Source: Natrinema pellirubrum DSM 15624 (GTDB lineage: Archaea > Halobacteriota > Halobacteria > Halobacteriales > Natrialbaceae). Taken from it: a stretch of 64,000 bases of DNA. The stretch is from contig NC_019962.1 in assembly GCF_000230735.2 (NCBI RefSeq), positions 2,728,001 through 2,792,000 on the forward strand, given 5' to 3'. Below are positions 11,850 through 29,662 of the stretch, piece after piece (position 1 is the stretch's first letter; each line of letters begins with the position of its first letter). Below the pieces are notes generated by a model that ran no database searches, was not told the DNA's origin, and was given only the letters and a program-made list of their open reading frames with translations. Made by a program: the position numbers and the translations under genes.

Positions 11850-12152
11850 ATGGTCGATGACGCGTTCGATGCGCTGGCAGACGGTCACCGGCGACGGTTG
11901 TTGCTCAGTCTCTTGACTCACAACCCACAAGACGTCTCGACGGGCGACGGCCTTCACTGGGAGATCGACGAGGCGGGCGACGAGCTGACACGGAAATATC
12001 ACGTCCACCTCCCGAAACTGGCCGACTACGGCTACATCGAGTGGCACCGCGAGGACGAAACCGTCGTCAAAGGGCCGCGGTTCGGCGAGATACAGCCGCT
12101 GCTCGAGCTACTGGACGACAATCGGGACGAACTCCCCGATGGCTGGTTCTGA
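11850..12152 (+). CDS. Winged-helix domain protein (DUF7344-like)
   Basis: A 100-aa protein opening with FDALADGHRRRLLLSLL, the first helix typical of haloarchaeal ArsR-like/DUF7344 winged helices, followed by YHVHLPKLADYGYIEW (recognition helix and wing) and an acidic helical tail. Probably a DNA-binding regulator, perhaps autoregulated through the palindrome just upstream. Targets are unknown. Confidence 0.7.
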   Translation: MVDDAFDALADGHRRRLLLSLLTHNPQDVSTGDGLHWEIDEAGDELTRKYHVHLPKLADYGYIEWHREDETVVKGPRFGEIQPLLELLDDNRDELPDGWF

Positions 12153-12484
12153 GCGGCGGACCGCAGTTCGGTGTTACCGATCTCGAGAGCGGATTGGCGG
12201 AGACGCTGTCCCGTCACTAGTGGCGACTGCTGAGAAGCGAAGTCGAACGGATCCGCGAACGAAACGACACGCCCCGCCGTGGTTGGGCCGTAACGGGGCG
12301 CGCCAGCGAACCATATCGGGCGTAGACTCAAGTAGCTTGTGTGATAATCCGGGTGAATGCGATAGTTCGGCTAAAACCGCCGTTTTCGGCGGTTCCCACT
12401 ACTGATTCCAAGCCATACACGAATCCTTTTCCCGCCGTCAGTTCCTATTGTACGTGTTCGGAACGCCGGACACGTGGTTGGGCC
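12153..12484. other. Intergenic region, no gene seen
   Basis: 332 bp without a convincing coding frame on either strand. The right end is less GC-rich and holds the promoter and putative operator of the TrmB gene. A GCCGTTTTCGGCGG-like local repeat lies near 12380. Confidence 0.5.
12453..12474. promoter_or_regulatory. Imperfect palindrome upstream of TrmB gene
   Basis: CGTGTTCGG (12453-12461) and CCGGACACG (12466-12474) form an 8-of-9 inverted repeat with a 4-bp spacer, ending 10 bp before ATG 12485. TrmB-type regulators bind palindromes, so autoregulation is plausible. Confidence 0.4.
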
Positions 12485-13297
12485 ATGACACAGGACGACA
12501 TTACGAACGAGGCGGTTAGTCTACTCCAGGATCTCGGTCTTCAAGAGTACGAAGCCCGGTGTTTTCTGGCGTTGACGCGGCTACCCAGCGGTACAGCGAA
12601 GGAAATACACGAGATCTCGGAGGTTCCCCGAACGCGGGTCTACGACGCCATTCGGGTACTCGAGTCACAGGGACTCGTCGAAGTACGACACTCGAGCCCC
12701 CAACAGTTTCGGGCGGTCGGCATCGACGAGGCCACGCGGACCCTCCGCCAGAAATACGACGACCGGGTCGACACCCTCGAGTCATATCTCGAAACCGTCG
12801 AACACCGCGAGACCGAGTCCGATGACGACCGGATGCAGGAGGTGTGGTCACTGACCGGACGCGACGCGATCGAATCGCGAACGCTCGATCTACTCACGGA
12901 GGCCACCAGCGAGATCGCACTGGTCGTTGCCGACGAATCGCTCCTGTCTGACCCGCTCTACGAGACGTTACACGATGCGGTCGATCAGGACGTCCAGGTC
13001 ATCCTCGGCGGCCGGACCGACGGCATTACCTCCCGGCTGGAAACGGAACTCCCGGCCGCCCGCGTGTTCGAGACGAACCTGGATTTTCTCATCGGATCGG
13101 GAACCGACCACGAAGTCGCGATCAGTCGCATCCTGCTCGTCGATCGGGAGGCGTTGCTGATCGGCTCGTACTATCCCAACAGCGAGGACTCGGCCGAACA
13201 GGCGATCTTCGCCAGCGGCCTCGAGAACGGAATCGTCGTGTTACTCCGGCGGTTGATCTCGTCGGGACTGACCGCCGTCGAGGACTCGGAACCGTAA
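12485..13297 (+). CDS. TrmB family transcriptional regulator
   Basis: A 270-aa sugar-sensing-type regulator. The N-terminal winged helix (residues about 8-75: LQDLGLQEYEARCFLALTRL, PRTRVYDAIRVLESQGLVEV) is followed by a coiled-coil linker (residues about 90-120) and a phospholipase-D-like C-terminal domain (EIALVVADESLL, VQVILGG, EVAISRILLVDREALLIGSY). ATG 12485 is preferred over an upstream in-frame ATG at 12341 because the family begins just before the winged helix. No sugar genes adjoin it, so its regulon is elsewhere. Confidence 0.85.
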   Translation: MTQDDITNEAVSLLQDLGLQEYEARCFLALTRLPSGTAKEIHEISEVPRTRVYDAIRVLESQGLVEVRHSSPQQFRAVGIDEATRTLRQKYDDRVDTLESYLETVEHRETESDDDRMQEVWSLTGRDAIESRTLDLLTEATSEIALVVADESLLSDPLYETLHDAVDQDVQVILGGRTDGITSRLETELPAARVFETNLDFLIGSGTDHEVAISRILLVDREALLIGSYYPNSEDSAEQAIFASGLENGIVVLLRRLISSGLTAVEDSEP

Positions 13298-13346
13298 CCG
13301 CAAGCGGGCGTTGCGTACAGCAGTTCACGACTGTCGTCGGTGAAAA

Positions 13347-13613
13347 TCAATCGGTAGCCACTGTCAGTTCGGTGCCGTCGATCCGAATCCGATACTCCGC
13401 CATGGAAAACGATACGACGACGTGATCACCGGCGACGAGAGCGTCCAGCGCACCGGGATCGATATACGAGTACAGCGTCATCTCGGCGGTCGTCGGGAGG
13501 TCGATCGGATCGACGTTCTCGAGATCGGCGATCACAGTCACGATAGCGATGCTCGGCGGCGTCTCCGACCAATCGAACTCACGTCGTACGATCACATCGT
13601 CCACGGTGATCAC
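13347..13613 (-). CDS. HalOD1 output-domain protein
   Basis: An 88-aa HalOD1 domain with the conserved tryptophan in FDWSETPPSIAIVTVIADLENVDP, the LYSYIDPGALDALVAGDHVVVSF block and a final hairpin YRIRIDGTELTV. It is convergent with the TrmB gene. It probably serves as a small signalling output module; partner unknown. Confidence 0.75.
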   Translation of the reverse strand: MITVDDVIVRREFDWSETPPSIAIVTVIADLENVDPIDLPTTAEMTLYSYIDPGALDALVAGDHVVVSFSMAEYRIRIDGTELTVATD

Positions 13614-13818
13614 CGGTGCAGTAAACCCACGACGACATGGAGGACTATATAACCGTTGTGAGGACTCGAGAGACAGCCGGCGACCGATTTCGGCGGCGTC
13701 GTCACTCTTGAGCCACGCCGGTCGTCACCGCGGGTATCGACCGATGGCTCTCGAGGGGAAGGGTGTCGAAGAAACGAAGTCACGCGACGTCGCCGTAAGA
13801 CGACGGTGCGAACCCGTG

Positions 13819-16624: not shown

Positions 16625-16740
16625 CCGTTGGCCCTCGTCCCGGAACGGTCAAAAAGCGTTCGCCACCGCGAGCAACGGCGGGTTGCCCGTGTCGCCCCGA
16701 CGAATGTGTATCCGTGACGGACCTCGATGAATTCGAGGGG

Positions 16741-16747
16741 TTTATCT
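16741..16747 (+). promoter_or_regulatory. Promoter element of tRNA-Ala
   Basis: TTTATCT lies 32-38 bp upstream of the mature tRNA 5' end, a suitable archaeal box A position. Confidence 0.4.
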
Positions 16748-16778
16748 ATTCCCGACGGGAACTGGAGAATGCGCTCGA

Positions 16779-16850
16779 GGGCTCGTAGATCAGGGGTAGA
16801 TCACTCCCTTGGCATGGGAGAGGCCCCGGGTTCAAATCCCGGCGAGTCCA
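16779..16850 (+). tRNA. tRNA-Ala(GGC)
   Basis: 72 nt without encoded CCA. The acceptor GGGCTCG pairs with CGAGTCC, the anticodon stem CTCCC/GGGAG encloses loop TTGGCAT with anticodon GGC, and the T arm is CGGGTTCAAATCCCG. It forms the left edge of the accessory region; tRNA 3' ends are common integrase targets. Confidence 0.93.
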
Positions 16851-16965
16851 TCGCTGTTTTGTCGTTTCAGACCTTCTACTTCCCGAATACGTACGTTTGA
16901 GGGTGTTCTCAAGACTATCCGTGAGTCGATGCTTTCAGCCGCTTGTTCGTGGGTCATGTTCCTGT

Positions 16966-17226
16966 CTATAGGTCTTCGATGAAGTCGCGTCGCTGTTCCC
17001 TCTTCTCGCGGTCTGTACGGCGGTCGTAGTGGCGCTCGAGGACTTCCGAGGATACGTCGCAGCGATCGCTGACGATCTTCTCGGGAATGTCCTCACGGAG
17101 CTGGTGGGTGATCGCCCCGCGCCGGATCGTGTGCGGCGAGAGACTGCTCGGACACTGCGAGTAGTGGCCGTACTCCGTCGCCTCGCAACCCATCGGCTCG
17201 TGGTCGTGGGGACAGTCCTCGATCAT
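16966..17226 (-). pseudogene. C-terminal remnant of a phage-type tyrosine recombinase
   Basis: An 86-codon open frame matching only the last part of haloarchaeal phage integrases. It has a zinc-finger-like CPHDHEPMGCEATEYGH segment, the catalytic HTIRR (His, Arg) and the nucleophile Tyr in ERHYDRRT. The N-terminal DNA-binding domain and first catalytic Arg are absent, so it cannot be active. Located 115 bp from the tRNA-Ala 3' end, it probably marks an old integration whose gene was cut or partitioned. Confidence 0.75.
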
Positions 17227-17301
17227 GCAGGGTACAGATAGACTTTGGTTTAATCAGTAAATTGCGGAGAGTTAGGTATTATTGTGCCGTTTGAGAACGT
17301 A

Positions 17302-17613
17302 ATGAGACAATCTGGGACATGGATGACGATCTGGGATGATCGGATCCTCGAGATCAGTCGTGACGAAGATGCAGGTCGGGTTGGGGATCTCACTGAGAGG
17401 GACGCTATTCGTATCTCTCCGTCCTCGGTATCCCGACGATGCAAGAAACTTGCAGAACATGGTCTTCTTACTCCTCTTGGAAACGGAGTCTATACGATTA
17501 CCGAGCGAGGCGAAGCATACCTCGATGAGGAGTACGACGCCGAAAACGAGACCTACCTCAACGGCGGCGACTCGAGAGACGGACCGAGTGCCAGTGGAAC
17601 CACTCAATCCTAA
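17302..17613 (+). CDS. PhiH1 repressor-like winged-helix protein
   Basis: A 103-aa regulator resembling the repressor of the halophage PhiH. The conserved opening is RQSGTWMTIWDDRILE, then a winged helix with SPSSVSRRCKKLAEHGLLTPLGNGVYTITERGEAYL and the ending LDEEYDAE. ATG 17302 is chosen because the family begins at this segment. It overlaps the start of the next gene (TAATG), so the pair is probably one transcript. These proteins usually control viral or proviral genes. Confidence 0.8.
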   Translation: MRQSGTWMTIWDDRILEISRDEDAGRVGDLTERDAIRISPSSVSRRCKKLAEHGLLTPLGNGVYTITERGEAYLDEEYDAENETYLNGGDSRDGPSASGTTQS

Positions 17614-17972
17614 TGAGCCGAAAACCCGCCCGCTGGATGTGTACGCTTGATGAACGGATTCTCGAGCATCTTTCGGAGGATCCGTGGTCGACACCGCAGC
17701 ATATGTCTCAAGCTGTCAAACTCACTGCGTCACGTGGGCGGGTCGAGGAGCGATGTCTAATGCTTTCTCAGGTCGGACTAGTTGCTCCGATCTTCGAGGA
17801 TAGCAACATGTACGAAATCACCTGCGAAGGACAGAGGTACCTCGATGGCGAGTTTGATGTTGAGAATCGGCCGGTGCCATCGCCTCGAGCGCTCCAAAAT
17901 AAGGATTCTCACAACCCTCCCATAACCGTCAAAATCACGCCAAGAGTGTCCTTTGGGCGTGAGTTCAAATGA
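17613..17972 (+). CDS. Second PhiH1 repressor-like winged-helix protein
   Basis: A 119-aa diverged paralogue of the preceding gene. The shared frame is ARWMCTLDERILEHLSEDPW, a winged helix (GRVEERCLMLSQVGLVAPIFEDSNMYEIT) and GQRYLDGEFDVEN, followed by a basic unstructured tail of about 30 residues. It starts inside the stop of the upstream gene. It is convergent with the low-GC operon, whose last stop lies 29 bp away. Confidence 0.7.
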   Translation: MSRKPARWMCTLDERILEHLSEDPWSTPQHMSQAVKLTASRGRVEERCLMLSQVGLVAPIFEDSNMYEITCEGQRYLDGEFDVENRPVPSPRALQNKDSHNPPITVKITPRVSFGREFK

Positions 17973-18000
17973 CGCTATTCTATGAGGTAATGAGAATTAG

Positions 18001-19197
18001 TCAGTCTACATAGTCGACTATCTCCCAATCAAACCTCCATTCGAGTATGAACACGGAAAGAGAGAATAACCCAACAAAGAGAAGAACTCCAATGGTCACC
18101 AACAGGAGTATGAATCCGACGGTGGGATCGATGAAATCGAGCCCCAAATCATCTACCAGATAGTTCAAGAGTTCATCAGTATTCCCGAATAGGGATAGGA
18201 TTCCAGTTAATGCTGCTACAGCGCTAAACCAACTAGACATTTTACTAAGTGAGTTGATTGTACTGTCTAAGTCTGCTCTTGAGTCAGATAGTCGATTTAC
18301 CTCATCAATCAAATGACTAAGTTCTGGGGATTCTTCTGCATCAGTCAACTTTCCGCCCGAAAATCGATGTATATGTAGGTCATTAACCAGGTCACACTCG
18401 CAAAGAACAACTTTTTCGTCGTCAGATCTAATTCCTGCGGTTAGCCCACGTTCGGAGACAGGTATTCTATGACGGTTTGCTTCTCTCACAGACGATCCAA
18501 TATTTGACTGTGGATCATATCCGATTTTATTAAGGTATTCCTGAATAGATGATATAATAACTGACTTTTTCGTACTTATCTGATCCACATTCAGTAAACG
18601 GTTTCCAGATGTGCCAAAAAAGTCGTCTAATTTTTCGTCGGCAGATGATTCAAACCGATCTTCTAATGGCTCAGTCCAAGCAAATATCCTCTCCGATTCA
18701 GATAACCCCTCGAGGATATCTGGATGCAAAAAACCAATACCAAACTCGGGTGCCTCATCAGAAAAAGTATATTCAGAAGCTTGTCGCTCCGTTGTAAAGA
18801 GAAGAAAATCAACCTTAACAGAGTCGACTTCACACTCTAATACTAAGATTCCTGACGGTCTTTTTTCCACATCACCTACACCAAAAGAGGTGTTTTCCTT
18901 AAACCACTCTGCCCACTCCTGTTTTACAAACTGCTCTATCTCGAGAGTCCATTCTTCAATTGTTTCTTTTCCCGCATTGTGAGTACAATACGATGGACGG
19001 TCCTCACAGATGTCACAAATATCCACCTCGCTCACAGAAAAGAATCTCTTTGAGCGATCAACAACATCAGGAGGATATCCAAAAGAATCTGCGGACTTCT
19101 TTAGTCTCTTTCTTTCAACTTTGATTTCAAATGGGTTTGGATGAGGCTCATGAAAGTAGCAATCCTGAAGAAAAGCTGCACGTTCAGGCAAGCTCAT
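18001..19197 (-). CDS. Unrecognised protein with two C-terminal membrane helices
   Basis: A 398-aa product, last gene of the AT-rich operon. The soluble part (residues 1-290) contains a Cys cluster C-x2-C-x6-C (DICDICEDRPSYC, near residue 60-70) that could bind metal. A predicted coiled coil (about 291-320) follows, then two hydrophobic helices (about 322-338 and 360-386) with a short charged end. No known family is recognised. ATG 19197 is preferred over 19251, reducing overlap with the previous gene to 14 bp. The architecture, a sensor-like soluble part plus terminal membrane helices, resembles effectors of defence operons, but this is inference. Confidence 0.6.
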   Translation of the reverse strand: MSLPERAAFLQDCYFHEPHPNPFEIKVERKRLKKSADSFGYPPDVVDRSKRFFSVSEVDICDICEDRPSYCTHNAGKETIEEWTLEIEQFVKQEWAEWFKENTSFGVGDVEKRPSGILVLECEVDSVKVDFLLFTTERQASEYTFSDEAPEFGIGFLHPDILEGLSESERIFAWTEPLEDRFESSADEKLDDFFGTSGNRLLNVDQISTKKSVIISSIQEYLNKIGYDPQSNIGSSVREANRHRIPVSERGLTAGIRSDDEKVVLCECDLVNDLHIHRFSGGKLTDAEESPELSHLIDEVNRLSDSRADLDSTINSLSKMSSWFSAVAALTGILSLFGNTDELLNYLVDDLGLDFIDPTVGFILLLVTIGVLLFVGLFSLSVFILEWRFDWEIVDYVD

Positions 19198-20044
19198 ACT
19201 TTTCCCGAATATGATCAATGAGTGAGAGTGGTTTTGCCCAAGACTCGACATCTGAACTCCGATTTGATGGCAAGTCTTTTCGGATAGATAGAATATAATT
19301 CAGGTGGTTTGCTAAATCTCCCTGATTGATTGTTTGTATATCTAATACATGGTCCGCATAAAGTTCGAAAAACCTATCAACGGTATACTTGTCCTCTGAA
19401 TAATTATCAAATTCAGTTCTCTTGATTTCATGTACGCCATCTATGTCGTCTGTATCTGGAACACCAGAATCAATAATCCCAACACCCAAGTTCGCAAATA
19501 TATTCATATATAATTCCAATTCTGTCTCAGAGTAATTGTTATAGTCGAAATATTCATTGATCGAGTCCTCAAAAGATTGTTTAAATTTAGAGGCGATTCT
19601 TCTACGTCTAGATCTAGATGTTGTCCGGTATTCATCTTCTAAGAACAAATCTATTAATTCGTCTATTGTTGATAGATAGTCTCGATATCTCTTTATTTTA
19701 TCTATATCATCAACAATCTCATCGAATAGGTTTGGCTCGACTGGTTGGGTCGAGGTGATGTGACCATCTTCGTAGACCCTTAGTTGAACATTTCGTTCAC
19801 CTTCGAACGGATCTTCTGGATAGCTCACATAAAACCAAATTTTTCTTAGGTCACCTCTGTCATGTGAATCTTCTACAAGTTGGTGGCCCATCGTATCTCC
19901 ACTGGGGTCACCACTATAGTTTGCTCTTCGAAGATCACTATAGAACTTATACCCCATATCGCTAACCTTCCCATCCCTTTCTAGTGCTAATAGCAGGAGT
20001 TCTGTCCCATTTAATTCAATTCGCGGAATACTTCCGGAGTTCAT
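19184..20044 (-). CDS. Unrecognised soluble protein of AT-rich operon
   Basis: A 286-aa soluble protein with no motif I recognise. The N-terminal third is mixed alpha/beta (YKFYSDLRRANY, IWFYVSYPEDPFEGERNVQLRVYEDG). The middle is strongly helical with an Arg-rich stretch (TSRSRRRRIASKF, about residues 142-154) and the C-terminal half is helical and acidic. It starts within the stop of the upstream gene (4-bp ATGA overlap) and overlaps the downstream gene by 14 bp, so translation is coupled. AT-rich codon use contrasts with the flanking core genes. Confidence 0.55.
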   Translation of the reverse strand: MNSGSIPRIELNGTELLLLALERDGKVSDMGYKFYSDLRRANYSGDPSGDTMGHQLVEDSHDRGDLRKIWFYVSYPEDPFEGERNVQLRVYEDGHITSTQPVEPNLFDEIVDDIDKIKRYRDYLSTIDELIDLFLEDEYRTTSRSRRRRIASKFKQSFEDSINEYFDYNNYSETELELYMNIFANLGVGIIDSGVPDTDDIDGVHEIKRTEFDNYSEDKYTVDRFFELYADHVLDIQTINQGDLANHLNYILSIRKDLPSNRSSDVESWAKPLSLIDHIREKYELA

Positions 20045-20721
20045 TGTTCTGTTTTCCGTCCAAGTGCACCAATTATTTCTACGATATCTGTTTGATCGCC
20101 TTCACGAATTCCCGATTGATTGGAAACCGCAATAAGCCCCTTGTCGATATAAATCCTGGCCTCAATTTTGTATGTTGCTGGTGCCCTTATTTCATATCCC
20201 TCTCCCCTGTACTCCTCGACTTCATTACCGTCTTTGTAAATAACAACAGGCAAGTCATCAGTAGGGTTTATTTTTTCTTCCTTCTCGATGGTTTGGAAAG
20301 ATACGTCTATTGTATTCTCAGCCTCATTTACTTCATTCAGAACCAAGGGCAAATCCCGTCGGTGACTGAATTCGGATTGGAGGTCCTTTCCCTCCCTTGT
20401 TGCTAAATTCTCAGTTAGTGTGTTCCTATTCAACGTACCGCCACTATTCTCAAATAGCTGAATATTAAACTTATCGCCTTTCTTCCCATATTCGGAAAAT
20501 AGATAGTCAATATATTCTTCATAATTCCCTGTACTACACACTTCCTTAACCAAGTCGAGATGCTGTGTTTTATTTATATTGTCTGAATGACTCACCCCAA
20601 TATCTTCGAACATTTCCCGAATTTTCGGGTCATTTGGATCAATAACATCCTGAACGATTCTATCTCTCTTTTCTGGTGTAGAATATTCATCTTCCCGGAG
20701 AAAGAAAGCGTCAGTCGTCAT
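20041..20721 (-). CDS. Unrecognised soluble protein of AT-rich operon
   Basis: A 226-aa protein. The N-terminal half is helical and charged; the C-terminal 90 residues (from LPLVLNEVNEAENTIDVSF to VEIIGALGRKTEQ) look like a beta-rich domain. No homologue is recognised. It overlaps the histone-fold gene upstream by 11 bp and the next gene by 4 bp. Composition is AT-rich and less acidic than the core proteome, consistent with recent acquisition. Confidence 0.55.
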   Translation of the reverse strand: MTTDAFFLREDEYSTPEKRDRIVQDVIDPNDPKIREMFEDIGVSHSDNINKTQHLDLVKEVCSTGNYEEYIDYLFSEYGKKGDKFNIQLFENSGGTLNRNTLTENLATREGKDLQSEFSHRRDLPLVLNEVNEAENTIDVSFQTIEKEEKINPTDDLPVVIYKDGNEVEEYRGEGYEIRAPATYKIEARIYIDKGLIAVSNQSGIREGDQTDIVEIIGALGRKTEQ

Positions 20722-21127
20722 TATCTTTGTTTGCGAAAACAGGAGACTTTTCAGCTAATTTATCCATCTCTCGTGCTTTCTCACGCATTTCATCTGCAGA
20801 TTCTTTCAATAGATCATGCGGCTCTCTGAGTTCATCATAAGCATCTTGGACATCATCCTTTGTAACTTGGCTTCGGCCATCATCACGAGTCTGTTTGCTC
20901 GCTTGTATCCAGAGCTGTATAGCAAGAAATTCCAACTGGTCCTTTAGTAATTCTACACCATCTTTCGTTGTTTGGCAATCTGTTTCATCTTTCAACATTT
21001 CTCTTAAAGGATTAAACTTTATTGGGTCATATTCATCCGACACATCCTCAGACATTACCCGAAGAACATTGTGTACAACATTTATATTTTTCGTCTGAGA
21101 CGAATTTGGTGGTATTACATACATCAA
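20711..21127 (-). CDS. Histone-fold-like protein with helical tail
   Basis: A 138-aa protein that starts the AT-rich operon. Residues about 39-100 read like an archaeal histone fold: helix 1 NPLREMLKD, loop 1 around DCQTTKDG, a long helix 2 (about 55-81), loop 2 GRSQVTKDDV at 84-93 (compare the GRKTVKAEDI-type loop of archaeal histones) and helix 3. A 20-residue N-terminal extension and a charged helical tail (about 103-127) flank the fold. It is acidic overall, so it may pair with a partner or DNA only weakly. Assignment is by eye. ATG 21127 is followed at once by a second ATG codon. Confidence 0.55.
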   Translation of the reverse strand: MMYVIPPNSSQTKNINVVHNVLRVMSEDVSDEYDPIKFNPLREMLKDETDCQTTKDGVELLKDQLEFLAIQLWIQASKQTRDDGRSQVTKDDVQDAYDELREPHDLLKESADEMREKAREMDKLAEKSPVFANKDNDD

Positions 21128-21256
21128 ATTTTAGCTAAGTGATATGTATGACAGCACCATGCTCAACTCGAGTAGGTTACCCCGAGTAGGGCGTAGATTG
21201 TGAACATCGAGGAGAGATCAGTATAACCCCACTCTCGCCGTGATTCCATTCGATAG

Positions 21257-21919
21257 TCAGTGAACGTGGTTCGTTTCGGTCGTTGTTGCCGGTGGCTGCA
21301 CGACTTCGATCCTACTTGAGACATCATCTTCGAGGTAATTTACCTTCCCCCGCTCCCGTCGAATCGCCTCTGGCGAGAATTCACCGAGGTAGTGCCGCCG
21401 GAACGTTTCCCAATCTTCCCAGCCGCCCCAGTCCATCACAACTGACGGTAGGACACCCTGCTCGAGTAGATTCGTCCCCCAGGTCCGCCGCAGGTCGTGG
21501 ACATCGAGAAACGACCAGCCGCGATCGCCGCTCTCGGCGTGGAGTCGTTCGGCAGCTCGCTGCACCCAGCGGTAGACTGTCTTGGCGGTCACGTCGACGA
21601 CCGGTTCGTCCGGTGCGATCCCGGCGGCGTCGGTGTGGGCGTCGATATACGTCGCCAGTTGGTCAGGGACCGGTGGCTCACGGTAGTGTTCCTGTTTCGC
21701 GACATCCTCCCAGACGCGCAGGTGCGTCCCGGTCGGCGTCTCGACGACATCGGCGGGCGTTATCTGGACGATCTCGCAGCGACGGAGTCCACATCGACCG
21801 GCGAGCAGGAACGCGATCATCTGGCGGTTGTCCTCCGCCTCGTCGATCACGGCCTGCAGTTCGTCTTCACTCAACCACACGCGCTTCCCTTCGCGTTGCG
21901 GGTAGGGCTTCAGTCTCAT
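21257..21919 (-). CDS. Tyrosine recombinase (small integrase)
   Basis: A 220-aa site-specific recombinase with a full catalytic set: Arg46 (GLRRCEI), Lys75 (VAKQEHYREPP), His141 and Arg144 (HDLRRTWGTNLL), Trp167 or Trp164 in MDWGGWEDW at the second-His position, and Tyr177 (FRRHYLGEF). It lacks a separate N-terminal core-binding domain, so it is shorter than phage integrases and similar in size to minimal archaeal recombinases. Located 130 bp upstream of the AT-rich operon on the same strand, it may mobilise it. Composition is GC-rich like the host. Confidence 0.88.
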   Translation of the reverse strand: MRLKPYPQREGKRVWLSEDELQAVIDEAEDNRQMIAFLLAGRCGLRRCEIVQITPADVVETPTGTHLRVWEDVAKQEHYREPPVPDQLATYIDAHTDAAGIAPDEPVVDVTAKTVYRWVQRAAERLHAESGDRGWSFLDVHDLRRTWGTNLLEQGVLPSVVMDWGGWEDWETFRRHYLGEFSPEAIRRERGKVNYLEDDVSSRIEVVQPPATTTETNHVH

Positions 21920-22067
21920 CGCTGTCCTCGATACTCAGTTTTAGCCCAACAAACCATGAAGAATAGGGTTATCAGTACGGGAATCGGACCCGGTCTCGGG
22001 GTAAATTGTCCTCGAAGACCGGCTTCGCGGACAGGGTAATCCGAAAGGCTAGCCTCTCGAAAAAGAG

Positions 22068-22211
22068 CTACTCGTCGGCCAGCGCGTCGTAGATATCGCG
22101 GTGCCGATCCATATCTCGTTTGACGATGAACCGGAGCATCCGCTCACGAACTTCGTCAGGATCCATGTCCGTGAGTTCGTCGGCGTCCGGTTGGTCTGGT
22201 TGACTCGCCAT
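22068..22211 (-). CDS. 47-aa acidic mini-protein behind Doc toxin gene
   Basis: A short frame starting MASQPDQPDADEL and ending YDALADE. It begins one base after the doc stop codon, so it is likely translated in the same transcript. Composition is acidic at the start, with a central DEVRERMLRFIVKRDMDRHRDIYDAL helix. No homologue is recognised. It could be an accessory of the toxin-antitoxin unit. Confidence 0.5.
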   Translation of the reverse strand: MASQPDQPDADELTDMDPDEVRERMLRFIVKRDMDRHRDIYDALADE

Positions 22212-22212
22212 C

Positions 22213-22689
22213 TTATCCCTCGTTTTGATCGCTACCGGGATAGTCGTTTCGTGCCCGTTCCTCGAGATCGAAGAAACTGAGAACCGCGACCTGTACGTCT
22301 GGATCGATCGGAGCCGCCGTCTCTTCGAACTGCTCGATAGCGGCTTGCTGGTCGACTTCGCTCTCGTCCGTTGCGAGTTGCTTCAGGAGGGTCCGAATCT
22401 CGTTTCCGTAGTCAAAGTCGAACCCGTTGAGGGCGTAGAAGGCGACCGTCGACGAAAGTGCGGTCCGCTTGTTGCCGTCGACGAACGGATGGTTTGCCGT
22501 CAACAGCCGCATGAGGTGAAATGCCTTTTCGTGGATCGTCTCAGGCTTCTGGCCGAACGCGCCGGCTTCGATAAAGCCGGTCGCGTATCCGATGTCCGAT
22601 CGGTGTTGCACACCCGGATCCGTCTCCGGATCGTCCTCGACGATCAGTTCGTGAATCGTCAGTACGTCGTCGACGCTCAGATATCTCAT
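22213..22689 (-). CDS. doc: Doc-type toxin (Fic/DOC superfamily)
   Basis: A 158-aa Doc-family toxin. The Fic-fold motif is HPFVDGNKRT at residues 67-76, with Lys in place of the second Gly as in true Doc kinases, which phosphorylate elongation factor EF-Tu in bacteria (established for phage P1 Doc). The N-terminal MRYLSVDDVLTIHELIV is typical. It lies 4 bp after the AbrB-like antitoxin gene. The archaeal target is unknown. Confidence 0.88.
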   Translation of the reverse strand: MRYLSVDDVLTIHELIVEDDPETDPGVQHRSDIGYATGFIEAGAFGQKPETIHEKAFHLMRLLTANHPFVDGNKRTALSSTVAFYALNGFDFDYGNEIRTLLKQLATDESEVDQQAAIEQFEETAAPIDPDVQVAVLSFFDLEERARNDYPGSDQNEG

Positions 22690-22693
22690 CGCA

Positions 22694-22891
22694 TCATGCC
22701 TCTGCGTTCGGGTAGTCGTTCGGATCGATCACTGATACCTCCCACGTCCCGGTATCGGTCCGCGTCACCCGCACCGGCTGATCTTTCACGTTCCCGTCCT
22801 CGTCTACCAATCCGAGCGCCCGAAGTTCGCCCTTCGGGAGTACAACACCGCCCGACGTACGACCAACTTGTGTCAACTGGTGGATCGGCAT
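22694..22891 (-). CDS. AbrB-like antitoxin
   Basis: A 65-aa protein with a swapped-hairpin AbrB-like look (VGRTSGGVVLPKGELRALGL) and a short acidic end (IDPNDYPNAEA). It directly precedes doc, the usual order in type II toxin-antitoxin operons: antitoxin first, serving as neutraliser and autorepressor. Start ATG 22891 sits 29 bp from a GTTTAAAC promoter-like palindrome. Confidence 0.75.
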   Translation of the reverse strand: MPIHQLTQVGRTSGGVVLPKGELRALGLVDEDGNVKDQPVRVTRTDTGTWEVSVIDPNDYPNAEA

Positions 22892-22919
22892 GGCTACGTT
22901 CCTAACTGGTCCTGAAACT

Positions 22920-22927
22920 GTTTAAAC
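22920..22927 (-). promoter_or_regulatory. TATA-like palindrome of the toxin-antitoxin operon
   Basis: GTTTAAAC is centred about 32 bp upstream of ATG 22891. It is self-complementary and may serve as both TATA box and operator. Confidence 0.4.
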
Positions 22928-23079
22928 ATTGGTCTCAGCAGTACAAGACTATGATATTCCCGACCGCTATCACTCGCTCGAGAGTCCCATCTGAGCATGG
23001 GTCAGACAACCCGCCACCGACTGACGAGAAGCCTATCGACGAGGTCTATCACGACCGAAATCTCCTCGCGATCGCCGAG

Positions 23080-24237
23080 TTAGTGATCCGGCCGTCGCTC
23101 GAGGATGTCGAAGATATCGATCGCTTTGTACTCCTGATTCCGCTGTTTGCCAGTCGTCTCGACGAGGACTCCGTCGGATACTAACTCCTCGATGGCGTTG
23201 TACGCGGTCTGTCGACTGACATCGTACTCGTCTTGGACATCGTTGGGGGTGAAGTACGGCATGTCGAAGACGCCCCGCGCAAGGCGATGGCTCGTTTTCT
23301 GGTGCGGATACCGTTGCTCGTAGTCGCGCCGAAGTTCTATCAGCCGCTGTGTCCGCTCGTACGAGTCCCGTGCCTGCACCTCGATCCCTTCGATGAAGAA
23401 CGCGATCCAGTCGCGCCAGTCCCCGGTTTCGCTCACAGCGCGCATCTTCTCGACGTATTCCTGCTTGTTGCGATTGAAGTAGGCGCTCGGATAGAGATAC
23501 GGCTCGCTCAGATAGCCCGCAGCGCAGAGCTGTAGGACGATGAGAATGCGGCCGAGTCGGCCGTTCCCGTCCTCACAGGGGTGAATCGTCTCGAACTGGT
23601 AATGCGTAATCGCGAGATCGACGAGCGGGTGATATTGGCCGCCCATCTGGATGTACGTCTCTAGCGAGTCCATCAGCTCGGACACCGATCCGTGCGGCGG
23701 GGGAACGAACGGCGGTTGACTGGCGTACGGAGAGGGAAGGTGGACATCGGTCGTCCGCCAGTCTCCGACGACCTCACCCTCGTTCCGGACGTTTTCGAGG
23801 AGCAACTCGTGGAGCGACTGGAGGAGATCGAGCGTTATCGACTCGCCCTGTTTGATCGCGTTGAATCCCTTCTGAAGGGCACGTTCGGCGTTCAGAACCT
23901 CCTGCAAGTCCCGACTCACGTCGACGGTCTCGTCTCCGCTGGTCCGCGTGTGATGGGCGTATACCTCGTCCACGTCGACATCGGCCCCTTCTATTTCGGC
24001 GGTCTCGACGGCCTCGAGGCGGACGAGTGACGTGTAGAGAACCGGCGAGAAATCGACGGTTGGACTGATCCCGTCGATCCGGCCGAGTTGAAAGGACGCG
24101 TCGGCGATACGCTCCGTGAGTTCGTCGTCGATATCGATCCCCCTCGAGAGGGGGAGCTTGTCCGGAACGTAGTATGGATGTGGATGAGACTCGAGATAGT
24201 GGCCAGGAGCCTCTTCCGGAAGTTCTCGAGTCCGCAT
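23080..24237 (-). CDS. Fic family protein with inhibitory motif and winged helix
   Basis: A 385-aa Fic protein that would transfer AMP or a similar group to proteins. The N-terminal inhibitory helix motif TAEIEG is at residues 79-84. The Fic motif HPCEDGNGRLGR is at 219-230, with Cys in place of the usual Phe but all catalytic residues (His, Glu/Asp, Asn, Arg) kept. The C-terminal 70 residues form a winged helix (TPNDVQDEYDVSRQTAYNAIEELVSDGVLVE). It is a self-regulated, stand-alone class; the target is unknown. Confidence 0.85.
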   Translation of the reverse strand: MRTRELPEEAPGHYLESHPHPYYVPDKLPLSRGIDIDDELTERIADASFQLGRIDGISPTVDFSPVLYTSLVRLEAVETAEIEGADVDVDEVYAHHTRTSGDETVDVSRDLQEVLNAERALQKGFNAIKQGESITLDLLQSLHELLLENVRNEGEVVGDWRTTDVHLPSPYASQPPFVPPPHGSVSELMDSLETYIQMGGQYHPLVDLAITHYQFETIHPCEDGNGRLGRILIVLQLCAAGYLSEPYLYPSAYFNRNKQEYVEKMRAVSETGDWRDWIAFFIEGIEVQARDSYERTQRLIELRRDYEQRYPHQKTSHRLARGVFDMPYFTPNDVQDEYDVSRQTAYNAIEELVSDGVLVETTGKQRNQEYKAIDIFDILERRPDH

Positions 24238-24428
24238 TTGACTAGACCACGAACTCCGGCGTGTTAATCATACCGCTTTTAAACCGATTTGATTACTCGT
24301 GTCTGAGGCGGCCCCACTCAAAATACGAGACGGGAGGTTTGGAGAACGGGCCCCTCGTGACAGCGGTTGACTGCGGATTACCGCGGACCGCCACCATCTA
24401 CGTCGGCTAACTGCGGACCTGACGCGCT

Positions 24429-24435
24429 CTTATAT
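24429..24435 (+). promoter_or_regulatory. TATA box of 59-aa gene
   Basis: CTTATAT lies 26-32 bp upstream of ATG 24461, the classical distance for a leaderless transcript. The 190 bp before it, back to the Fic gene start, hold no gene. Confidence 0.45.
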
Positions 24436-24460
24436 CCGAATTCGGCCGGTCGACCGGCGC

Positions 24461-24640
24461 ATGGCGATGAATTTCGATCCGGCTACGCAGGCCCTGACTG
24501 ACAGCGACGTGTGGACGGACGAGAACCACCGGCACGAGCGACGCAGCGCCCTCGATCGAGGGGAAGACACCACGGATCGAAGCGCCGACGAAGTGAAGCG
24601 TGAGAACCACGCTGACGAGCGCTCGTCGCGGTGCCAGTAG
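24461..24640 (+). CDS. 59-aa hydrophilic mini-protein
   Basis: A short frame beginning MAMNFDPATQALTDSD and ending ADERSSRCQ. It is hydrophilic and charged, with no hydrophobic segment. Support comes from the well-placed TATA box and haloarchaeal acidic composition; no homologue is recognised. It is convergent with the methylase gene, 61 bp away. Confidence 0.4.
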   Translation: MAMNFDPATQALTDSDVWTDENHRHERRSALDRGEDTTDRSADEVKRENHADERSSRCQ

Positions 24641-24701
24641 CGGGCAGTCGCTCGAGAGTTTTTGAACAACGAAACCGTCTACGGGCCGTCGCCAACCGCG
24701 C

Positions 24702-27700
24702 TCACTCGTCCCCGAACTCGCGTCGGACGGTCTCGCGCTCCGTCTCCGAAAGGTCGTACAACGCACTGACTCGCTCGTCGATCCGGCGGTCGAGCGCCTC
24801 GAGTCGTGTGTCCAACGCCGCTACACGCTCCCGAGCCTCACGATAGGCCGCGAGTCCGTCGGCGACGTCCTCGAGTCGGGGTAGGGCCAGCGACTCGAGT
24901 CGATCGAGCGGGGAGATCGTCTTCGTCGCGTCGCGTCTGCAACTCGCGGCCCCGTCGCCTGCCGAGACCGCGTGGGGGACGAACGCCGCGAGCAGCGCTG
25001 CCCGGTCGTCGTCGGGATCGGTGATCTCGAGAGCGGGGATGGGATCGGTTTCGGCGTACCCCCAGCGGTCGGTGTCGACGGCAGCGTCGTCGGGCTTGTA
25101 CCGGACGGTCGCCGAGAGTCGGAACGTCGTGCCGTCGTCGACGGTGACGGAGCCGAGTTTCAGGGTCGGCCGATCGGTCGTCGTCGCCACGAGGGGCGTC
25201 GTCGCTACGCCGTCAGCTCGACGGACGATGGGGAGGTCGCCGACCGACGGACCAGTTCGGTAGTCGCCGAGGTAGTCGGGAAGCGCCAGCGAGAGGGTGG
25301 CTCGCTCGGCGGTCAGCGAGCGCCGTTCGTCGACGGCTGCGACGAGTTCCGGATCGGGAGCGTCGGCCATCGGAACGGGCAACGACTCGACGGTGGACTG
25401 GTTGAGCTGGGGGAAGACGGCGCGATAGGCGGCGTGTTTGTAGTGGTGATAGAAGGCGAGTACCGACGAGTTCAGGACGCCGAGCAGGTGTTTCAGCGCG
25501 GCCGCCGATCCCGACTCGAGCCGGACGTTGTATACCGACTTGATCGTCGCGAGGTCGTCGGCGTCGTAGGCGGCGACGAGGGCGTCGCCGGTCTGTCGGA
25601 GGAGGAGTTTCGGGCTCTCGTACTGTCGCTCGGCTTTCGCCAGGTCGGCCGGATCGACGTATCGGAGTTCGTCCGTGTCGAGTCCGTACCGGCGGATCGC
25701 CGCGCCGGGCGCGATCGGACGGCGGTTTGCCCCCGGGCTGTCGGCGAGGGAATCGGCGCGCTTGCCGATCTCTTCGCCGCGGGAGATGTCGATAAACGAA
25801 CCCAGAGCCGGCCGTTCCTCGAGCGTCGACAGCACGCGTCGCGTCTCGGCGTCCAGATAGATGCGAAACCGGGCGGCGTCCTGCGACTCGAAGACCGAGC
25901 CGGGGATCGATTTGTAGGACAGCGCGTCGAGGTCACCTACGTCGGTCGTATCGGCACAGTCGACCATGGCATCGCCGTCGCTGGAGGTGTCGCCGCCGCT
26001 GACGACGATCGCCGCGCCCGTTTCGACGCCGTCGAACGCCGCGCCGACGCGGACGATCGTCGACGGCGGGGCGTTCGCCAGAAGGAATTCCCTGAGTGGC
26101 GCGTTGCCCTCGCGGGTGAGGATCGAGTCAGGGACGACGAACCCGACGCGCCCGTCCGTCGACAGGCGGACCGCCCGTTCGTAGCAGGCGACGTAGAGGT
26201 CGAACTGGTTCTCGGTCGTGACGAACGCGTCCGCGAGGTACGAGCGGAGCGTGGGCTCGAGCGACGCGCTGATGTCGGCCCGGCCCGCGGTCGCGACCCA
26301 GGGCGGGTTGCCGACGACCGCGTCGAAGCCGGGGTCGTCGAGCGGGCGGCCAGCCGGGTCGGAGAACCGTTCGGGGAACGCCAGCCCCCAGTGGAGGAAG
26401 CCGTTGGCCGCAGCCGCCTGCTGTGCGGCGGTGAACCACTCGGTCCGTGAAAGACGATCCCACGCTTCGTCTCCGTCACCGTCGAGCGCGGCCAGCAGCC
26501 GATCGACCGCGTCGTCCGGGACACACTCGAGGCCGAACGCGCGGGCGGTCCGAACGTTCGCGATCGTCTCGAGTCGCCGGCGGTGGGGATCGCGATCGAT
26601 CGGTTCCCCCCGTCCCGGGGTCGCCGTTCCGAGCGGGTCGCGGTCGCTGCCGACCAGTGCGTTCCCGGCCCGGAGATGACCCTCGAGGGCCACGGGCGGC
26701 CGGTCGGCGGTCAGCGTCCGGAGCCGGAGCGACGCGGTCGCCAGTTCCACCGCGAGGGGACGGCGATCGACGCCGTAGACGCAGTGCTGGGCGACCCGTC
26801 GGCGGGCCCAGTCGGCGTCGCGCTCGGAGGCGAGGGACTCGAGTCCCCGCTCGCGGGCCTGTCGTTCCTGTGCGGCGACGAGGGCTCGGGTGAGCGCGTC
26901 GACGACCGCGGTCAGGAAGTGGCCGCTGCCCATCGCGGGGTCGAGGACGGCGAGATCGAACACGCGGTCGGCGACCCGTTCCGCGAACGGCGCGTCCGCC
27001 TCGGGGTCGTGATCTGCGAGGTCGGCGCGGATCTCCGACAGGAGCGGCCCGACGGTTCGATCGACGACGTACTCGACCATGGACGGCGGCGTGTAGTACG
27101 AGCCCGAGGTCTTCCGGTGGCTCCCGTCGGCGGCGAGATACGGCTCCCCCCGGTCGACGGCGACGGGGCCCCCGTCGGCCGGGACGTACTCGCCGTCAAT
27201 CAGCGCGAGTGGTTCGTCGGCGATCTCGAGGCGCGCCTCGAGCAGCCGTTCGTAGACGCGTCCGAGGTCGCGGACGTCGAGCGACGCGGGGACGAACGCG
27301 AGCCGCCCGTTCCCGTCCCGTCGGGCGAGCAGGTCGAGCGCGTGCGACAGGCTGTCGTCGCGGACACCGTGTGCGGCGAGAAAGCACAATGCGGGGCTCG
27401 AGCGCTCGTCCGCGGAGCGGGAGCTAGAGACGCCGGCCAGTCGCTCGAGTCGATCCTCGAGGCACGTCCAGGCGTCGTCCCCGCCGATATCGTCGGATGC
27501 GTCGGACTGCACTGACGCGTCGGGACCGAGCGCGATCGAGCGCATGCACGACCGCAGGCCGCCGCCGTCAAACCGGTCGTTCGCGCTCGAGTCCGTCCGT
27601 TCGCGTTCGACCACGACCCCGATCAGCAGCCGATAGACGGCGGTGAGGGAGGCCTCGAAGAGCAGTTCGCGGTCGCTCTCGTCGAGGGCGTCCCGATCGA

Positions 27701-28508
27701 GGTCGGTAGCGGGCGACGCGAGTAAGCCGTCGGCGACGACGGCGACGGCCTCGGCGACGTTCGATCGGAGGTTGTCCCGGAGTGTCTGCGCGTGGCCGGC
27801 CGACCGTTCGGCTGCGCGATCGAGGACGCAGTCGCCCTCGGCGTTCGGGCGAAAGGCAGCGCCGCGAAAGAAGTAGTAGACGTACCTGAACGCTTCGTGA
27901 TCGTCGGCCTCGAGGATCGCGGGAAGGTCGACTTCGTAGTACGAATCCAGCCGGCCGCTGGTCGAGGCGTCGTAGAGCCGCCATCGCCGGCCGTTCGTCA
28001 GGACACCCCAGCGAACGTCGTTCTCCTGCACGGCGACGTGGAGCCTGTGACTGGGGTTCTCGGCGGGTCGATCGTCTCCGGCGGCCCCGCGCCCGTCGAG
28101 GTCTCGGCCCCACGACCTGACGTCGGCGATCGCGACGGCCGCGTCCGGGACCTCGCTCGCGGCCGCGTCCAAATCGGCACGATCTGGACGGTCGGTTCGC
28201 GCCGTGCGCTCGGCCCCGTCGTCGCCCGCCAGAATCGCGTAATCCGGCCGACTTCGCGGTGGCCCGGTCGACTCGATCGGGACGACCGACAGTCCAAGAG
28301 TCCGGAACGCCGGACGAACGAATCGCTCCTCGATGGCGTCGGTCGCCGCCGAGTCACGGACCCGCTCCCAACAGCGGCGCAGGTCGTCGAACGTCTCGCG
28401 GCAGTCGGCGTCGTCGATCGTATCCCACTCGTCGGTCTCCGGGAGCCGCCGCTCGAGGAAGGCGCTCGAGAACGGGCCGTGAACGGCGCGAACGTGTGGC
28501 GACTGCAT
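24702..28508 (-). CDS. Eco57I-like N6-adenine DNA methyltransferase with degraded nuclease motif
   Basis: A 1268-aa type IIG-like protein. The central methylase has motif I LDPAMGSGHFL (about residue 521) and motif IV GNPPW (about 732), which methylates adenine; the C-terminal third resembles TaqI-type specificity domains. The N-terminal part should be a PD-(D/E)xK nuclease: RPDY (about 89) is present, but the usual E-x-K before W is replaced by ADVRSW (about 129), so cutting is doubtful. ATG 28508 is chosen; upstream frame is non-coding. No partner restriction gene adjoins it, so it may act as an orphan methylase. Confidence 0.8.
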   Translation of the reverse strand: MQSPHVRAVHGPFSSAFLERRLPETDEWDTIDDADCRETFDDLRRCWERVRDSAATDAIEERFVRPAFRTLGLSVVPIESTGPPRSRPDYAILAGDDGAERTARTDRPDRADLDAAASEVPDAAVAIADVRSWGRDLDGRGAAGDDRPAENPSHRLHVAVQENDVRWGVLTNGRRWRLYDASTSGRLDSYYEVDLPAILEADDHEAFRYVYYFFRGAAFRPNAEGDCVLDRAAERSAGHAQTLRDNLRSNVAEAVAVVADGLLASPATDLDRDALDESDRELLFEASLTAVYRLLIGVVVERERTDSSANDRFDGGGLRSCMRSIALGPDASVQSDASDDIGGDDAWTCLEDRLERLAGVSSSRSADERSSPALCFLAAHGVRDDSLSHALDLLARRDGNGRLAFVPASLDVRDLGRVYERLLEARLEIADEPLALIDGEYVPADGGPVAVDRGEPYLAADGSHRKTSGSYYTPPSMVEYVVDRTVGPLLSEIRADLADHDPEADAPFAERVADRVFDLAVLDPAMGSGHFLTAVVDALTRALVAAQERQARERGLESLASERDADWARRRVAQHCVYGVDRRPLAVELATASLRLRTLTADRPPVALEGHLRAGNALVGSDRDPLGTATPGRGEPIDRDPHRRRLETIANVRTARAFGLECVPDDAVDRLLAALDGDGDEAWDRLSRTEWFTAAQQAAAANGFLHWGLAFPERFSDPAGRPLDDPGFDAVVGNPPWVATAGRADISASLEPTLRSYLADAFVTTENQFDLYVACYERAVRLSTDGRVGFVVPDSILTREGNAPLREFLLANAPPSTIVRVGAAFDGVETGAAIVVSGGDTSSDGDAMVDCADTTDVGDLDALSYKSIPGSVFESQDAARFRIYLDAETRRVLSTLEERPALGSFIDISRGEEIGKRADSLADSPGANRRPIAPGAAIRRYGLDTDELRYVDPADLAKAERQYESPKLLLRQTGDALVAAYDADDLATIKSVYNVRLESGSAAALKHLLGVLNSSVLAFYHHYKHAAYRAVFPQLNQSTVESLPVPMADAPDPELVAAVDERRSLTAERATLSLALPDYLGDYRTGPSVGDLPIVRRADGVATTPLVATTTDRPTLKLGSVTVDDGTTFRLSATVRYKPDDAAVDTDRWGYAETDPIPALEITDPDDDRAALLAAFVPHAVSAGDGAASCRRDATKTISPLDRLESLALPRLEDVADGLAAYREARERVAALDTRLEALDRRIDERVSALYDLSETERETVRREFGDE

Positions 28509-28663
28509 GGCTGTGTGGACAGCTCGCGGGCCGGGCGGGCCGGCGGGACGCGAGGAGCCGATAGCGATCGGGCGGCTCCGGTGCTGTGTCCCTTCCCACG
28601 TCAGGCCCGCGACACATAGGTTTTCCTCAGTCTCCGACGACTCGAGACGATGACCCGGCCGCG

Positions 28664-29662
28664 TCATCGATCACCGCGCGGATACCGATCCGGCGCGGCG
28701 TCGGGCGTCCGTCGCTCGAGCAGGTCCAGCACGGGTTCGCTCGCGGCGAGGCGGATCCCGAGTCGAGTGAGTCGGTCCCGGATCGTCGCGGGAACGAGAG
28801 TGCCGTACAGCGAGCCCAGCAGCGGGACCGGCCCGACGCGGTAGTGCGTGTCGGGAGTTCGAGCGGTCGCGGCCTCCCGGACCGTCTCGGCAACCCGCTC
28901 GGGTTCGTTGACGAACGGCCCGCCGCCCTCGACGGCTCGGAGCCGCTCGAGGATCCGATAGAGGTCGGTGTTCCCGTCCGATCCGACGACGGTCACGTTC
29001 CTGCGCGCCGCGGTCGTGGGGTCGTGATCGGGGGTCGCCCCGTCGGCGTCGGGTCGCGGCGACTCCGCGCTCGCGGCCGCGTCCTCGACGGCCGCCAGCG
29101 CGCGGTCGTAGAACGGCGTCGCGACGATCCCCGGCTGGACGACGACGACCGCGATCTCGGTCTCCGACAACTCCTGTCGAAGCGCGTCGCTGAGACTCGC
29201 CAGCGCCCACTTCGAGGCCGTGTAACCCCCGATACCAGCAAGCGCGAGCCGGTCCGCGGCGCTGGTCACGTTCACGATCCGGCCGCGACCCCGTTCGCGC
29301 ATCCCCGGCAATACCGCACGAATCAACCGGTGTGGCCCGAAACAGTGAACCGCGAACTGGCGCTCGAGCAGGCGGGTCGGCACGTCCTCGACGGGCCCGA
29401 ACTGCCCGTAGCCCGCGTTGTTGACCAGACAGTCGACGCCGCCGGCCTCCTCGCGGATCCGCGAGACGACGCGGCCGGGCGCCTCGGGCTCGGTGAGATC
29501 GAGCGCCGCGATGTCGGCCCCGCGGTCGGCCAGCCGCTCGAGGCCCGGCCGGTCACGATCGCGAGCGGTCGCGTAGACGCGCCACCCCTCGTCCAGCAGG
29601 GCGCGGGCGGTTTCGTAGCCGATCCCGGACGAACAGCCGGTCACGAGTGCGGTCGATGGCAT
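28664..29662 (-). CDS. Short-chain dehydrogenase/reductase
   Basis: A 332-aa SDR oxidoreductase. The Rossmann motif is TGCSSGIG near residue 8, the NNAG motif (LVNNAGYGQFG) follows, and the active site has Ser in TSAADR and Tyr-x3-Lys in GGYTASKWAL. The C-terminal region is extended by about 80 residues relative to classical SDRs. Cofactor and substrate are unknown. It lies 155 bp upstream of the methylase gene on the same strand. Confidence 0.85.
   Translation of the reverse strand: MPSTALVTGCSSGIGYETARALLDEGWRVYATARDRDRPGLERLADRGADIAALDLTEPEAPGRVVSRIREEAGGVDCLVNNAGYGQFGPVEDVPTRLLERQFAVHCFGPHRLIRAVLPGMRERGRGRIVNVTSAADRLALAGIGGYTASKWALASLSDALRQELSETEIAVVVVQPGIVATPFYDRALAAVEDAAASAESPRPDADGATPDHDPTTAARRNVTVVGSDGNTDLYRILERLRAVEGGGPFVNEPERVAETVREAATARTPDTHYRVGPVPLLGSLYGTLVPATIRDRLTRLGIRLAASEPVLDLLERRTPDAAPDRYPRGDR

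Follow-up and report, generated by a model that had tools for sequence, protein, structure and literature searches.

A probable RdgC-type histone operon with a split RdgC/CENP-N-like protein in the cargo slot of a tRNA-Ala element of Natrinema pellirubrum

What is an AT-rich group of four overlapping genes, set between two recombinase genes beside a tRNA, in the GC-rich genome of a haloarchaeon? The question is raised by the window analyzed here, a 64,000-nucleotide stretch of Natrinema pellirubrum DSM 15624 (contig NC_019962.1, positions 2,728,001 to 2,792,000), in which the genes, designated A to D, fill positions 18001-21055. A sequence-only reading of the window had put them forward as a candidate for an undescribed system. 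The operon type already has a name. The accessible part of Schwab et al. (2024; PMC11390915) describes an RdgC histone operon, of unknown function, in certain Halobacteria and Bacillus, in which a histone gene is followed by the gene for an RdgC-like protein (18% identity to RdgC) and then by that for a transmembrane (TM) protein found only there. Because gene order, histone fold, and predicted structure agree with that description, A-D very probably form an RdgC-histone-type operon, and the proposal of an undescribed system falls.

Layout and conservation of the operon

The four genes are minus-strand open reading frames (ORFs) in which A overlaps B by 11 bp, B overlaps C by 4 bp (ATGA), and C overlaps D by 14 bp with the D start placed at ATG 19197; the longest possible D ORF begins at 19251. 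The GC content of A-D is 39.9% versus 66.4% in the remainder of the window. A truncated integrase gene and a second tyrosine recombinase gene flank the operon, and a tRNA-Ala(GGC) gene is nearby. The overlaps, strand, AT-rich composition, and position between integrase genes beside a tRNA had all been described correctly in the sequence-only reading. The features of the region are the following.

16779..16850, plus strand: tRNA-Ala(GGC), integration site of the element; the site is kept in congeners.
16966..17226, minus strand: C-terminal remnant of an integrase, 86 residues; 335-residue versions stand in four congener regions.
17284..17972, plus strand: winged-helix regulator pair (PHROG 2440, E = 7e-32 and 1e-26), backbone flanking the cargo slot.
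18001..19197, minus strand: gene D, membrane protein of 398 residues with a Cys cluster, CxC-x7-HxH at 266, and a C-terminal TM region; homolog at 16 loci.
19184..20044, minus strand: gene C, 286 residues, C-terminal half of an RdgC/CENP-N-like protein by identity to fused proteins and plasmid homologs.
20041..20721, minus strand: gene B, 226 residues, N-terminal half of the same protein by identity to fused proteins and the predicted fold of a fused relative.
20711..21055, minus strand: gene A, RdgC-type histone-fold protein of 114 residues (archaea_histone match, profile against PDB, upstream of B at 16 loci).
21056..21095, minus strand: region in front of gene A with a putative TATA box and a putative leaderless start, from sequence.
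21257..21919, minus strand: second tyrosine recombinase, 220 residues (Pfam Phage_integrase, E = 3.8e-14), backbone across the slot.
22706..23076, minus strand: small gene, AbrB-like by eye, with the element's right end; block present in 8 of 12 congener regions.

Searches with single proteins across 391 genomes sampled from the class gave matches for B in 13 and for C and D in 11 each. Reading of the loci showed the order A-B-C-D in 11 of the 391, the window's own genome included, and four further plasmids and one metagenome-assembled genome bring the total to 16 distinct haloarchaeal loci (the L049 plasmid is the same locus as genome G296 and was counted once). A lies directly upstream of B at all 16, and a D homolog stands in the same position at each. 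The D genes of G112 and G347 escaped the single-sequence search and were located in place by reading; runs of N break up the G112 copy. The operon exists as described and is conserved, with the histone-fold gene first and the membrane protein gene last as had been anticipated. Matches away from such an arrangement were dropped: those of B in G261 and G078 lie inside 601-residue response-regulator-like frames; those of D in G251 and G332 are weak and away from A-C, the G251 frame being Arg/Ser-rich and the G332 frame holding inner stops; and a histone-like frame of 115-121 residues in G188 has no operon of this type beside it. A lone 65-residue fragment from the N-terminus of B, with an internal stop (G246:C1:904736-904933), was not counted as an operon; it is probably a decayed copy.

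Spread within the class is patchy (11 of 391 genomes). Among 15 genomes of G112's genus, profile A1 found a match in G112 alone. Trees of the B-C and D proteins contain the same two main clades (L045 left out of the D tree), and two families contain B-C proteins that are 91-92% identical, which suggests that the genes travel together horizontally. The ratio of nonsynonymous to synonymous substitution rates among close relatives was 0.02-0.08 for A in three operons and, in five operons each, 0.05-0.18 for B-C and 0.09-0.17 for D; A-D of the window are too divergent for this measure and were left out. Operon GC is below that of the flanks at 13 of the 16 loci, the exceptions being L036, L040, and L053, and five loci are on plasmid-annotated records (L040/L049 and L050-L053).

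The histone-fold, B-C, and membrane proteins

Against the PDB, the A family profile matched the DNA-binding protein HmvA at E = 1.3e-9 and histones with E values starting at 3.9e-8, which upholds the earlier description of the first gene as histone-fold-like. Window A alone matched NCBIfam archaea_histone at E = 1.3e-4, under the curated cut-off, and matched no histone model in Pfam; of 12 A proteins, nine matched PF00808 at E ≤ 0.1, window A not being among them. About 40 residues extend beyond the histone fold in the alignment of A proteins. The gene probably starts at ATG 21055 (114 residues), TTG 21127 being unlikely, because a AATATAAA box ends 25 nt upstream of ATG 21055 and several relatives (e.g., L043, L044, and L053) start A close to the equivalent position in the alignment.

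Genes B and C correspond to a single protein elsewhere. Aligned with fused proteins of seven genomes, B shares 26-39% identity with the N-terminal half and C 26-36% with the C-terminal half; homologs of C were also found on plasmids. A single protein of about 500 residues is encoded at 10 of the 16 loci and two genes at five (the window, L041, L042, L044, and L051); at L058 a run of N makes the two states undecidable. The window boundary falls near residue 222 of the fused protein, between the first and second alpha-beta lobes as read. The tree requires three changes of the split state, well-supported branches force at least two, and 52 of 500 shuffles gave a count as low. Splitting or fusion of B and C thus seems to have recurred, and the two are therefore argued to act as one unit. 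The sequence-only reading had listed them as two unknown soluble proteins; they are better described as the halves of one RdgC/CENP-N-like protein.

The fold of this protein was approached through a fused relative, L054 from Natronosalvus hydrolyticus, modeled with AlphaFold from nine sequences that included window B and C (predicted local distance difference test score, pLDDT, 76.8; predicted template modeling score, pTM, 0.74). The best Foldseek match in the PDB was human CENP-N (E = 7.8e-6, probability 1.00, TM-score 0.19 by query and 0.27 by target), along with Escherichia coli RdgC 2owl (E = 1.1e-5, probability 1.00, TM-score 0.25 by query and 0.39-0.41 by target) and Pseudomonas aeruginosa RdgC 2owy (E = 6.1e-5). 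The VIA comparison of the same model gave Iml3 (Z = 9.2, root-mean-square deviation (rmsd) 4.1, 160 residues aligned), RdgC (Z = 8.9, rmsd 9.0, 219 residues aligned, with residues past 348 falling outside the match), CENP-L (Z = 8.3, rmsd 4.1, 194 residues aligned), and TBP (Z = 7.9 over 81 residues), values barely higher than the Z of 7-8 that unrelated models can reach. VIA rows within one Z unit count as tied, so RdgC and CENP-N/CENP-L are inseparable as the best fold. Independent RdgC and CENP-N/CENP-L entries top the ranks of both programs, which raises trust in the match. The fused relative is thus predicted to resemble RdgC and CENP-N/CENP-L in fold, a likeness that is not diagnostic of family and is shared in part with TBP. 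In the accessible parts of PMC4080450 and PMC5095916, the likeness of Chl4/Iml3 to RdgC and TBP has been published.

The closeness of these Z values to the level of unrelated models counts against the assignment, as do the low TM-scores and the negative sequence tests for RdgC. The TM-scores of the seven Foldseek matches at E ≤ 0.001 are 0.18-0.27 by query and 0.27-0.41 by target. The Pfam RdgC family, PF04381, was found in none of the 11 operon-bearing genomes at E ≤ 10, and the E. coli control scored above the cut-off; hhalign of profile A1 against a six-sequence RdgC alignment returned a probability of 0.3. RdgC was also absent among the families matched by 10 fused B-C proteins, in which DUF1249 (best E = 3.2e-4) and DeaD_dimer (best E = 1.8e-3) match two members each. 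B, C, and D gave nothing above the curated cut-offs of Pfam or NCBIfam and nothing better than E = 0.02 in PHROGs; the weak matches in the family scans of the window proteins included RecG_N (0.057) and RecR_ZnF (0.14). No viral sequence homolog was present in IMG/VR for B or the B-C profile, and in phage records C had one weak match only (E = 0.2, Rhizobium phage) and the L045 B-C protein none. Compared with viral structures, the B-C model matched 11 proteins at E ≤ 0.001 (best 3.0e-5), mostly uncharacterized phage proteins, among them one named exonuclease, one RNaseLS-like protein, and one giant-virus TATA-binding protein.

D combines a Cys cluster with a hydrophobic C-terminus. The window copy carries the cluster CDICEDRPSYCTH at residue 61, and an N-terminal pattern of this kind is present in five of 15 D proteins scanned. 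A CxC..HxH motif is shared by 14 of the 15, L041 being without it (L045 was omitted from the scan since its D is broken by runs of N); the motif is a possible metal site. In the window copy a single TM-like stretch (351-390) exceeds the hydropathy cut; the 14 relatives scanned have at least two apiece, partly overlapping. The last gene had been described as encoding two membrane helices and a Cys cluster; the cluster is there, and a second TM-like stretch passes the cut in relatives and not in the window copy. Foldseek with the D model found nothing at E ≤ 0.001. Likenesses to PD-(D/E)xK-type folds (Can2, Z = 5.9; FokI, Z = 5.0) and to Pur-alpha (Z = 4.9) were dropped because the model is poor and no conserved nuclease motif was seen in the alignment.

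The element at tRNA-Ala and its cargo slot

The tRNA region was compared with the 28 other genomes of the genus that gave matches; 12 congener regions were fetched and their genes were read in 10. By DNA match the tRNA block is present in 12 of 12, the C-terminus of the integrase in 11 (not in L124), the winged-helix pair in nine (in L121 partly), and the AbrB/right-end block (window 22696-22781 to 22974-23092) in eight; L117 has a diverged winged-helix pair by reading. The second recombinase is 92-96% identical in six congeners, five of which were fetched (L113, L114, L115, L116, and L123). The tRNA 3' end did not recur elsewhere in the window, and window 16700-29500 gave no convincing direct repeat of 15 or more bases and no array around the operon; with no attL/attR repeats found, the element ends are placed by congener comparison.

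The slot, bounded by the winged-helix pair and the second recombinase, holds A-D in the window and different AT-rich cargo (GC 0.42-0.45) in the five elements with the same second recombinase. In L113 it contains a type II DNA methyltransferase (PADLOC, E = 1.8e-111), an ATPase-like protein with a weak MzaB match (5.4e-4), and a 317-residue protein. The L114 slot contains two methyltransferases and a DUF262-type protein (HEC-05, E = 2.9e-68; PDB 7p9k, E = 1.2e-22), and L116 has homologs of these three proteins at 83-90% identity; both slots also hold a protein of 313-344 residues. L115 and L123 contain three-gene sets with a membrane protein (by eye), of which three of the six proteins were scanned and gave no PADLOC match. 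The slot of L120, whose second recombinase is more distant, encodes a methyltransferase homolog at 31-32% identity, and no defense gene was recognized by eye in that of L117. A recognized methyltransferase cassette is thereby present in three of the five elements that share the window's second recombinase, and in four of the nine with the winged-helix pair. Exchange with restriction cassettes therefore supports a defense role for the slot cargo by association, which is not proof. The suggestion of a tRNA-linked mobile island is supported by these comparisons, the operon standing in an element slot that in some congeners holds restriction or defense cassettes.

Some of the cargo and the neighboring genes deserve separate mention. 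The L113 genes (L113:4272-7654; cytosine methyltransferase, ATPase-like protein, and 317-residue protein) are possibly an Mza-like cassette, and the three-gene sets at L115:5885-8860 and L123:3794-6380 are candidate new defense modules. Two seemingly similar proteins (by eye) stand on either side of the second recombinase in L123 (L123:970-2064 and L123:3794-4783), which suggests duplicated cargo within that element. Near the right end (window 22213-24237), two Fic-like genes, one of them a Fic/Doc gene by Pfam (Fic, E = 3e-10), accompany the small AbrB-like gene, and roughly 127 bases from there recur at several places in congeners. Just beyond the element, a long gene at window 24702-28667 has the look of a type IIG/PglX-like restriction-methyltransferase, and a frame resembling it lies beside the L114 element (11918-13705), both judged by eye.

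Possible functions and comparison with known systems

Context and fold lead us to favor, tentatively and at somewhat less than an even chance, a reading of A-D as a membrane-tethered DNA-sensing or exclusion system directed against competing mobile DNA. In such a system the small histone A would oligomerize and bind or bridge DNA, the B+C protein with its RdgC/CENP-N/CENP-L-like fold would clamp DNA or histone-bound DNA as a dimer, and D would link the complex to the membrane. Once invading or abnormal DNA was engaged, D would either sequester the DNA or harm the membrane and stop the cell. The accessible part of PMC11077077 describes RdgC as forming ring-shaped dimers that bind DNA non-specifically and modulate RecA, and lambda RexA as a protein of RdgC fold that binds DNA non-specifically, acts with the membrane protein RexB, and shifts the lambda switch. 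A-D would act like RexA/RexB and would not be a member of that family. A more specific version, in which an archaeal system against mobile elements is chromatin-based, the histone coating or bridging invading DNA, an RdgC/CENP-N/CENP-L-type clamp reading the complex, and the membrane protein tethering it or triggering the response, is doubtful.

Several results weigh against an exclusion role, in addition to the limits of the fold match given above. Foremost among them, none of A, B, C, or D matched PADLOC 2.0.0 at E ≤ 5. The D model (pLDDT 58.7) is too poor to give a reliable fold or to show whether a winged helix is present. In the slots of L115, L123, L118, L119, and L121 no defense gene was recognized. 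The element here may itself be decaying: the distance from the integrase end to the winged-helix pair is 58 bases in the window versus 1.6-3.6 kb in relatives, and a 335-residue integrase was read in four congener regions, so the window element appears to have lost most of its integrase. The accessible text of PMC11077077 states that DNA binding by RexA is not the main determinant of exclusion in lambda. The wider neighborhoods of the other copies contain restriction, BREX, Hma, and Pycsar genes and also Orc1/Cdc6, ParA, and toxin-antitoxin genes, and only one of 10 further large neighbors tested singly matched a defense model at E = 1e-8. A count of PADLOC families at E = 1e-10 (209 for 130 neighbors at 15 loci versus 64 for 130 controls) was given no weight, as many families match one protein, four large defense-like genes were added by hand to the test side only, the control also matched defense models (GajB, LmuB, and others), and the ORF caller picks antisense ORFs in GC-rich flanks.

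Orc1/Cdc6 near the plasmid copies L049 and L050, with ParA near L050, would equally suit plasmid maintenance, and with the toxin-antitoxin genes they keep such a role in play. A maintenance or segregation module, in which a DNA site marked by the histone is read by the CENP-N/CENP-L-like clamp and the replicon is tied down by the membrane protein in a kinetochore-like manner, would account for the five plasmid loci among the 16, for the likeness of the B-C model to the kinetochore proteins CENP-N and CENP-L, and for the adjacency of histone and clamp genes at all 16 loci. It is nonetheless unlikely, as the operon here belongs to the cargo of an element on the main contig whose slot some congeners fill with restriction cassettes, congeners retain the element backbone without it, and no direct-repeat array of the kind sought above was seen. 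A role confined to the element itself, in the control of its recombination, its replication, or a switch of the lysis-lysogeny kind, is a similarly improbable explanation. RdgC modulation of RecA and the effect of RexA on the lambda switch (PMC11077077, accessible part) speak for it, as does the position of the operon beside recombinase genes and two regulators, but the operon is also found on plasmids, and the same backbone in five congeners has other slot genes, so the element does not need it. Least probable is a xenogeneic silencer, a unit of chromatin or gene regulation directed at foreign AT-rich DNA: a histone-fold protein and an operon GC under that of the flanks at 13 of 16 loci would fit, whereas the conserved membrane protein would be unexplained, three operons are not AT-richer than their flanks, and the spread is restricted to 11 of 391 genomes.

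Literature searches, which missed most subscription journals and bioRxiv, returned no functional study of the RdgC histone operon, and no prokaryotic link of RdgC-type proteins, histones, and kinetochores was found in searches with many journals outside their coverage. As far as these searches reach, three points are new: the evidence of slot exchange, the two-gene form of the RdgC-like protein, and a histone paired with a CENP-N/CENP-L-type fold. Placing the RdgC histone operon among slot cargo interchangeable with restriction cassettes gives it a concrete, testable function, and the natural B/C split makes the complex easier to dissect. The histone and CENP-N/CENP-L-type fold together are a candidate model for the evolution of a clamp that reads histone-bound DNA, which bears on kinetochore origins. 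If the chromatin-based version held, it would be a prokaryotic counterpart, in immunity or replicon tethering, of CENP-N/CENP-L reading the centromeric nucleosome.

Four known systems frame the operon. The RdgC histone operon, whose named Haloferax volcanii histone is D4GVY1, has the same succession of histone gene, RdgC-fold protein, and TM protein, occurs in Halobacteria, and likewise has no known function; it differs in that five of the present loci, the window's among them, encode the RdgC-like protein as two genes, whereas the accessible part of PMC11390915 presents a single gene. Further marks of the published type are a long C-terminal helix in the histone that makes a tetrameric coiled coil, additional N- and C-terminal parts in the RdgC-like protein, and a winged helix in the TM protein. 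RdgC itself (2owl and 2owy) shares the predicted fold of the fused B-C protein and differs in having no sequence match to it, and B-C has an extra C-terminal helical region together with histone and membrane partners at 16 loci. CENP-N and CENP-L (yeast Chl4/Iml3) also share the predicted fold, and CENP-N binds a nucleosome (6c0w), the B-C gene here adjoining a histone gene; they show no sequence relation to B-C and belong to the kinetochore, whereas the partner here is a membrane protein. Lambda RexA/RexB, for which no RexA entry appeared among the 50 matches listed in either fold search of the B-C model, pairs an RdgC-fold DNA-binding protein with a membrane protein on a mobile element and has a proposed role in exclusion. 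Its description in the accessible text of PMC11077077 includes no histone gene, and RexB is given there as a small protein with four predicted TM helices, whereas D, at 398 residues, has a sizeable soluble portion besides its C-terminal TM region.

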